Shown piece by piece: positions 15,903 to 17,308 of a DNA stretch of 35,360 nt. Source of the stretch: Clostridiales bacterium. Its GTDB lineage: Bacteria; Bacillota; Clostridia; Oscillospirales; Acutalibacteraceae. Location: positions 1 through 35,360 of the forward strand of contig DUMT01000010.1 in assembly GCA_012839705.1 (NCBI GenBank), read 5' to 3'. Position 1 is the first letter of the stretch; each line of letters opens with the position of its first letter. The position numbers and the translations under genes are program-made. The notes under the pieces were generated by a model that saw only the letters and a list, made by a program, of their open reading frames with translations, was not told the DNA's origin and did not search any database.

Positions 15903-16240
15903 TAAAAACGCCTCCTTTAATTATAGTTGGCGGGCGACGCTAAATCTTCACACTCCGCCGGGTGTTTCATCCGCAGCGGTTAAAAAAACCGGAAACCCGC
16001 CCGCAAAAGGCATGGAATCCGGGTGCAATTCAGCGCCCTGGTGACAGCACACAAAACCCCTTGCAACCGCAGGGATTTCACAGTGGCCACACAGTATTGA
16101 TTGTCGCCCGGTTTCAAGAACGGACATACTCAGCGGAAATTCACCGGCCTTAAAGCCGCAACCTCCCGCGTCATCGCATATCGTGCAGTCTGCGAAAACA
16201 GCGAATCCGGAAACTTGGCTCCCACTTCGCAGTCACGCCC
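15903..16240 (-). promoter_or_regulatory. Long structured 5' leader of the S10 superoperon
   Basis: About 335 bases lie between the predicted transcription start (about 16238-16240) and rpsJ, without a credible gene. Several helices can form in the RNA: CTGCGAA / TTCGCAG (16226-16232 with 16190-16196), CGGC / GCCG around a TTTAAG loop, and a hairpin followed by seven U residues (15982-16022). In gammaproteobacteria the S10 leader mediates L4 autoregulation. I do not recall an established equivalent for this group, so regulation by L4 or another r-protein is inference. Confidence 0.6.
15982..16022 (-). terminator. Attenuator-like hairpin with U7 in the S10 leader
   Basis: On the minus strand CCGGA (16018-16022) pairs with TCCGG (15989-15993). 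An AA/AA internal loop, a CC/GG step and a GCC/GGC step extend the stem, and seven U residues follow at once (15982-15988). It lies downstream of the only good promoter and upstream of rpsJ, so premature termination there would control the whole operon. The stem is only moderately stable. Confidence 0.45.
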
Positions 16241-16463: not shown

Positions 16464-16492
16464 AAAAATCCGGCAGGGCGCCCAGCCGGATT
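16464..16492 (-). terminator. Intrinsic terminator of queT
   Basis: On the minus strand AATCCGGC / GCCGGATT (8 bp, 10-base loop) is followed by TTTTTC. It begins 7 bases after the queT stop and separates queT from the S10 promoter. Confidence 0.85.
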
Positions 16493-16498
16493 AATACA

Positions 16499-17035
16499 TT
16501 AATAATTATTATTGAACAAAACCTTGCGCACTCCTGAGCGCTCAAGGGCTGTATATAATACCAGCCCGCATATTGTGCAGGCGGCTAACTGTCCCAATCC
16601 TACATACAGAAAAGCTGTAAGAAAGTTCATCCATGTAAATCCGAGGAGAACCAGGGCAAGTTCCAATCCCACCACCACGGCATTTGTGATAACAGGCGGT
16701 ATGGTGGCGAGCACCGGCAGCCCCTTAAACTTGACATTCCTCAGCCAGTAGGTCATCCACGCAGCGGCAAAGGTAGCAAGGGAACCAAACAGTATATCCC
16801 ACGCCCCCGCCAGGTTAACGCCCATGGCAAGCCCCACGATATTTGATACCATGCACCCCACCGCAAGCCCCGGAATGGCGGATACGGTAAAGACGGGCAG
16901 GATTGTGAGGGCTTCGGCTACCCTAAACTGGGCAAGCCCATAGGAAGCGGTAGGAATCGCCAGGGTGAGAGCGGTATACATGGCTGCAATAATGGCGCTC
17001 TCAGCTATTTTCCTTAAGATGTTTTTTTCTTTCAT
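16499..17035 (-). CDS. queT: QueT-type queuosine precursor transporter (ECF S component)
   Basis: QueT is the substrate-binding membrane subunit of an energy-coupling-factor transporter thought to import queuosine precursors such as preQ0 or preQ1. The 178-residue product has about five to six hydrophobic segments and the family hallmarks SYGLAQFRVAEALTILPVFT, AIPGLAVGCMVSNIVG, WDILFGSLATFAAAWMTYWL and LYVGLGQLAACTICGLVLY. The gene has its own promoter and terminator, and a preQ1-I-type riboswitch covers its ribosome binding site, which independently supports the substrate. The shared EcfAA'T module is not in this window. Confidence 0.94.
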   Translation of the reverse strand: MKEKNILRKIAESAIIAAMYTALTLAIPTASYGLAQFRVAEALTILPVFTVSAIPGLAVGCMVSNIVGLAMGVNLAGAWDILFGSLATFAAAWMTYWLRNVKFKGLPVLATIPPVITNAVVVGLELALVLLGFTWMNFLTAFLYVGLGQLAACTICGLVLYTALERSGVRKVLFNNNY

Positions 17036-17044
17036 TGACTACAA

Positions 17045-17087
17045 CTCCCTTAGTTTTGTTTTAGGTCAGGATGGTTTCGAACTGACC
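17045..17087 (-). promoter_or_regulatory. preQ1-I-type riboswitch controlling queT
   Basis: On the minus strand stem P1 is GGTCAG (17082-17087) / CTGACC (17064-17069) around the 12-base loop TTCGAAACCATC. It is followed by the A-rich tail TAAAACAAAACTAAGGGAG. This matches the known preQ1 class I layout (short stem, loop, A-rich tail forming a pseudoknot), closely resembling the small translational aptamer of Thermoanaerobacter. The tail ends in the GGGAG ribosome binding site, 9 bases before the queT ATG, so ligand binding should hide the site and lower translation. The pseudoknot pairs were not modelled. Confidence 0.85.
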
Positions 17088-17141
17088 GCCTTAACACGTT
17101 TTATCCCGAAAACCGGCTAAAAAACGTTTTAAGACCAGATT

Positions 17142-17170
17142 AATATACTCCCATTTTGTTTTTTAGTCAA
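17142..17170 (-). promoter_or_regulatory. Sigma-A promoter of queT
   Basis: TTGACT (17165-17170) and TATATT (17142-17147) are spaced by 17 bases on the minus strand. Transcription would start near 17135, giving a leader of about 100 bases that contains the riboswitch. The divergent spacer 17171-17308 toward rpsU is AT-rich and shows no gene. Confidence 0.75.
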
Positions 17171-17308
17171 ATAGAAATTTTGGGAAACCCGGTTTTTCCT
17201 GAATATTATTTATGCTTTAAATAAAAAAAATCTCTTGCCCTGACAGCAGGTAATAAATATTGTATTTAATACATTTTATACTTTTTGAATTATGTAAAAA
17301 TATAATGC

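Follow-up and report, generated by a model that had tools for sequence, protein, structure and literature searches.

Class I preQ1 riboswitches were reportedly divided into types I to III by McCown in 2014, and later papers restate that consensus. A type I loop opens with UU and has UC ahead of the 3' strand of P1, and its tail contains CUA; type II has AC ahead of that strand, and the B. subtilis and T. tengcongensis switches both belong to type II (PMC11625349, PMC8752633). In the Carnobacterium structure two stacked ligands are contacted by U6, U7, C17, A30 and C31, with C8-A12-U32 as the ceiling (PMC8752633). C31 is the beta-site specificity base, U32 a ceiling base and A33 the first Shine-Dalgarno base (PMC8752633, PMC10622847). 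In type I switches the Shine-Dalgarno core lies mostly outside P2, and in the case studied only the first Shine-Dalgarno bases contact P2, while pairing of G34 can be dispensed with. Published type I switches mostly leave the Shine-Dalgarno sequence unburied when they repress translation, a mode called indirect occlusion. Experiments on a type 1 preQ1-I switch of Listeria queT showed binding of two preQ1 and translational repression (PMC12519234).

A comparable element is found on the minus strand before queT in the stretch of DNA analysed here, called the window (35,360 nucleotides of a Clostridiales bacterium contig, DUMT01000010.1). It is very likely a class I, type I preQ1 riboswitch controlling translation of the queT importer. 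The element is real and ordinary: it belongs to a riboswitch type that is well characterised, and was itself previously uncatalogued and below the database threshold.

Anatomy of the element and of the queT leader

Read directly, the minus strand from 17087 to 17045 is GGUCAG-UUCGAAACCAUC-CUGACC-UAAAACAAAA-CUAAGGGAG, with the queT ATG at 17035. The P1 5' strand GGUCAG (DNA GGTCAG, 17087-17082) and 3' strand CUGACC (DNA CTGACC, 17069-17064), located by sequence reading, descriptor search and P1 covariation, form 6 Watson-Crick pairs around the 12-base loop UUCGAAACCAUC (DNA TTCGAAACCATC, 17081-17070). Sequence reading then gives a 10-nt A-rich L3 linker UAAAACAAAA (DNA TAAAACAAAA, 17063-17054), followed by CUA (DNA CTA, 17053-17051), that is C31, U32 and A33 with roles taken from PMC8752633 and PMC10622847, and by AGGGAG (17050-17045), which comprises A34 and the Shine-Dalgarno core GGGAG. 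Nine bases, TTGTAGTCA, separate this core from the ATG (17035-17033). The layout given in the original prediction (6-bp stem, 12-base loop, A-rich tail, ATG 9 bases on) matches the window to the base, and, with both strands searched, a stem/loop/tail descriptor hits this site alone in the window. The single-sequence folding energy of the element is no better than that of shuffles (z +0.93), an uninformative score which is expected of a 6-bp hairpin joined to a pseudoknot that is invisible to the folding program.

Two features place the element in class I, namely a P1 hairpin whose loop ends in the specificity base C and is followed by an A-rich L3, and linkage to a queuosine synthesis/import gene (queT). 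The loop supplies U6, U7, C8, G9, A12, U16 and C17 (Carnobacterium numbering, base roles from PMC8752633), the type I alpha- and beta-site bases. Indeed, U6, U7, C17, A30 and C31, the ceiling C8-A12-U32 and G9/A33 are all present at equivalent window positions. The loop opens with UU, UC precedes the 3' P1 strand and the tail carries CUA, and the element is therefore assigned to type I. The loop had been thought nearer the Thermoanaerobacter type, which is wrong since Thermoanaerobacter, like B. subtilis, is type II; the sub-type is corrected to the two-ligand Carnobacterium/Listeria kind.

The gene downstream encodes 178 aa (ORF at 16499-17035, minus strand) and matches Pfam PF06177 QueT with 133 bits (E 9.8e-39), which bears out its naming as queT, the substrate-binding subunit of an ECF-type importer of preQ1, a precursor used in tRNA modification. 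A consensus scan finds a promoter-like TTGACT-17-TATATT at 17142-17170 (-) with 10/12 matches, function not being implied by the match alone; if it is used, transcription would start at ~17135. A similar TTGACA...TATAGT site lies upstream of the aptamer in riboswitch-bearing same-genus loci. The MFE fold of the leader predicts a hairpin, P0 (17088-17135, minus strand), flush against P1, and in five same-genus riboswitch loci a predicted hairpin also ends within ~1 base of P1. Across 114 upstream regions such a hairpin is not enriched, being found in 26% of copies vs 31% of control stretches, and outside the genus it was rejected as a regular component of the element. On the 3' side of queT, an intrinsic-terminator-like hairpin with a T run is found by folding at 16467-16492 (-), suggesting that queT may be its own transcription unit. 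Between queT and the S10 operon, the window also contains an S10-Clostridia ribosomal protein leader (RF03136, 48.8 bits, 16101-16182, minus strand), and the queT / S10-leader neighbourhood is seen in L010, L012, L013, L015, L016 and L019 as well.

Conservation, covariation and the Rfam gathering score

A QueT protein scan of the contig database (genome_contigs) returned no relatives, and a DNA pattern was used instead. The pattern fixed only the loop bases with the closing G-C and the tail AAAACTANGG, and it drew at least 120 stretches from genome_contigs. Among the matches listed the hosts are all Bacillota (Oscillospiraceae, Lachnospiraceae, Clostridium, Bacillales, Listeria and Paenibacillus) and the distinct copies number 106, the window and same-genus copies being included. 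In these 106 copies among the matches listed no mismatch occurs within the five inner P1 pairs; the closing pair is fixed by the pattern, and the other four inner pairs show 3 or 4 pair types each. For 42 aligned long-L3 copies among the matches listed, the P1 covariation score is 0.517, while shuffled alignments give 0.117 and slid ones no more than 0.093. Among the same matches, the loop is identical to the window's in 38 of the 106 distinct copies (window included), 10 nt is the commonest L3 length and the exact linker UAAAACAAAA occurs in 13 distinct copies. A QueT-like ORF is led by 85 of the 117 listed copies with enough downstream sequence.

P2 is thin in the window, A facing A at positions 10 and 34. 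Covariation between 10 and 34 is not significant in the copies among the matches listed (Watson-Crick in 35/106, 28.7 expected), and of the two other placements checked, 11-34 and 15-34, the former is only marginal. P2 pairing therefore carries no claim. The A12-U32 pair is invariant across the group, hence uninformative for covariation.

Scanned as a whole against Rfam at gathering scores, the window gave no preQ1 match. In a permissive regional scan RF00522 PreQ1 ranks first, at 17091-17044(-) with 26.6 bits and E 0.0017, for a gathering score of 39, while preQ1-II and preQ1-III gave zero matches at E up to 10 within 16950-17300. The Rfam search that had been proposed as a check thus returned the expected family at the exact place, but below its gathering score. 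Over the 1.9-Mb genome the element is the best RF00522 place (E 0.0022; runner-up E 0.77). Furthermore, a model named R1, built from those 42 aligned long-L3 Bacillota copies, which include none from this genome or its genus, gives the element 65.8 bits (E 1.4e-18), its next-best sites being at E 0.42 in the window and E 1.34 in the genome, and it also matches 140 of the 295 genomes sampled from the order. Together with P1 covariation, these matches support the preQ1-I class originally proposed.

The RF00522 alignment to the window contains a 3-base insertion after P1. All four scanned Bacillales copies with a 7-base L3 are above the RF00522 gathering score (51-56 bits), whereas it is reached by none of the 22 scanned copies whose L3 is 10 bases long or contains a hairpin (L040, L044, L048, L060, L072, L098, L050, L064, L043, L057, L096, L013, L015, L017, L019, L021, L016, L023, L029, L030, L037 and L102). 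The Rfam miss of long-L3 forms looks systematic, and the combined length of P1 and L3 is its likely cause. As none of the scanned long-L3 forms is above the PreQ1 gathering score, preQ1 switches in Clostridia are probably under-counted by genome annotation. It appears doubtful that the clostridial long-L3 type I forms would make up a large sub-architecture missed by the Rfam cut-off, with a tail-holding and initiation-control mode of their own and defined by a 6-bp P1, an L3 that is 10 bases long or bears an added hairpin, an optional 10-34 pair and sometimes a leader hairpin flush on P1.

Distribution in the genus and variant architectures

With R1 at E < 1e-3, the element is found in 5 of 11 other same-genus genomes. 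A compact form like the window's is present in G005, and a form in which an additional hairpin separates P1 from the A-rich tail in G004, G007, G008 and G010. Descriptor and model searches did not find the element near queT in five same-genus loci (L010, L011, L012, L014 and L018). This mixed presence and form implies that the switch was gained, lost or remodelled among close relatives.

In three same-genus loci (L015 1230-1480, L019 1313-1470 and L016 2189-2040 on the minus strand) the aptamer lies ~150-250 bases before queT, and a pairing is predicted between its tail GGGGAAAAGG and CCTTTTCC, which lies immediately ahead of the start region GTGAAAGGATG. According to this predicted pairing, the arrangement looks like a relay expression platform (anti-anti-Shine-Dalgarno), in contrast to the direct one in the window. 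Type I preQ1-I aptamers also carry inserted L3 hairpins of unrelated sequence, placed between P1 and the A-rich tail, in L013, L015, L016, L019, L021, L029, L030, L043, L057, L086, L096, L097 and others, and the final bases of the tail are retained. Of 21 long L3 segments, 12 form at least 5 pairs when folded, vs 35% of shuffles. A Lachnospiraceae MAG (L102 5388-5471, minus strand) carries two complete type I preQ1-I aptamers in direct tandem (56.7 and 54.0 bits). In Paenibacillus (L051, L095 and L111), type I aptamers lead a membrane-protein-like ORF starting MFN(L/F)xWG, which is not QueT by profile and may be another queuosine-precursor transporter.

Probable control of queT and comparison with described switches

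The genome is 98% complete and has QueA and TGT adjacent to each other, with a weak match for QueG; QueF and QueH were not found in it. Its sole QueC match, a weak one, is an MnmA-like protein and was rejected, the MnmA identity coming from reading its sequence and not from a family scan. Since QueA and TGT are present and QueC, QueF and QueH were not found, imported preQ1 is probably needed. The organism probably relies on preQ1 from outside, with QueT as the route one would expect, and the switch would mean feedback control on what looks like the genome's only preQ1 source.

Because the ATG lies 9 bases past GGGAG and the leader contains no terminator, the switch is best read as controlling translation initiation, as the translational layout first described also had it. 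At low preQ1 the P1 hairpin alone would form, leaving the A-rich tail and AAGGGAG free for the ribosome to initiate. As imported preQ1 accumulates, two stacked preQ1 molecules would probably bind, the alpha site being read by C17/U6/A30 and the beta site by U7/C31. The bound ligands would lock the tail against P1 and form a short P2, with A12-U32 under the C8 ceiling and A33 against G9/A11, and the compact pseudoknot beside the Shine-Dalgarno core would lower initiation and hence import. From published type I members we infer that the ligand would be preQ1, bound at two sites, and that repression would proceed by indirect occlusion, import by QueT being very probably turned down once preQ1 is plentiful. 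The A10/A34 of the window and the non-significant 10-34 covariation of the group fit a dispensable G34 pairing. In the original prediction the switch seals the ribosome binding site; the Shine-Dalgarno is in the aptamer tail as stated, but its burial was overstated given the indirect occlusion of type I.

That a real aptamer would act on transcription here, through termination or pausing, is very improbable. B. subtilis type II does terminate transcription, and several database copies are followed by hairpins with U runs rather than by an immediate start codon, but a terminator hairpin would not fit in the window leader, where the ATG comes so soon after the Shine-Dalgarno, and the tested Listeria queT (PMC12519234) and Carnobacterium type I switches are translational. 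A type II switch of the Thermoanaerobacter/B. subtilis kind, binding one preQ1 with two Shine-Dalgarno bases buried, is even less probable: the H-type layout and the A-rich tail are alike and AAGG follows as in T. tengcongensis, yet UC and not AC precedes the 3' P1 strand, and the UU and CUA are type I marks. The least probable reading is that of a degenerate remnant or chance hairpin which binds no ligand. It would agree with the sub-threshold Rfam score and with the lack of the element in some same-genus queT leaders, but every base reported for both type I ligand sites is present, and 19 of the 106 distinct copies among the matches listed, window included, share the loop and the base after CUA, as well as R1 giving so high a score. 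A type I switch acting on queT translation is thus the reading we retain.

Compared with known systems, the window shares the H-type pseudoknot and the alpha site with the T. tengcongensis/B. subtilis type II switches, which differ from it in having AC ahead of the 3' P1 strand, where the window has UC, and in binding a single ligand. RF00522 is its best family match, although P1 and L3 together are longer than in the Rfam model; likewise, its 6 P1 pairs and 10 L3 bases differ from the collected Bacillales copies, which mostly have a 5-bp P1 and a 7-8-base L3. The Carnobacterium antarcticum Can switch (PDB 8fb3, PMC8752633) is alike in the UU loop start, C8, G9, A12, UC and the CUA tail, in the loop through C17 and in the Shine-Dalgarno located in the tail, but it has C10-G34 where the window has A at 10 and A at 34. 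Listeria goaensis L114, compared base by base, has the same loop TTCGAAACCATC with a 7-base L3. Finally, the Listeria monocytogenes queT switch (PMC12519234), which has been tested and is translational, differs in host group and is alike in class, type, gene and placement at the ribosome binding site.
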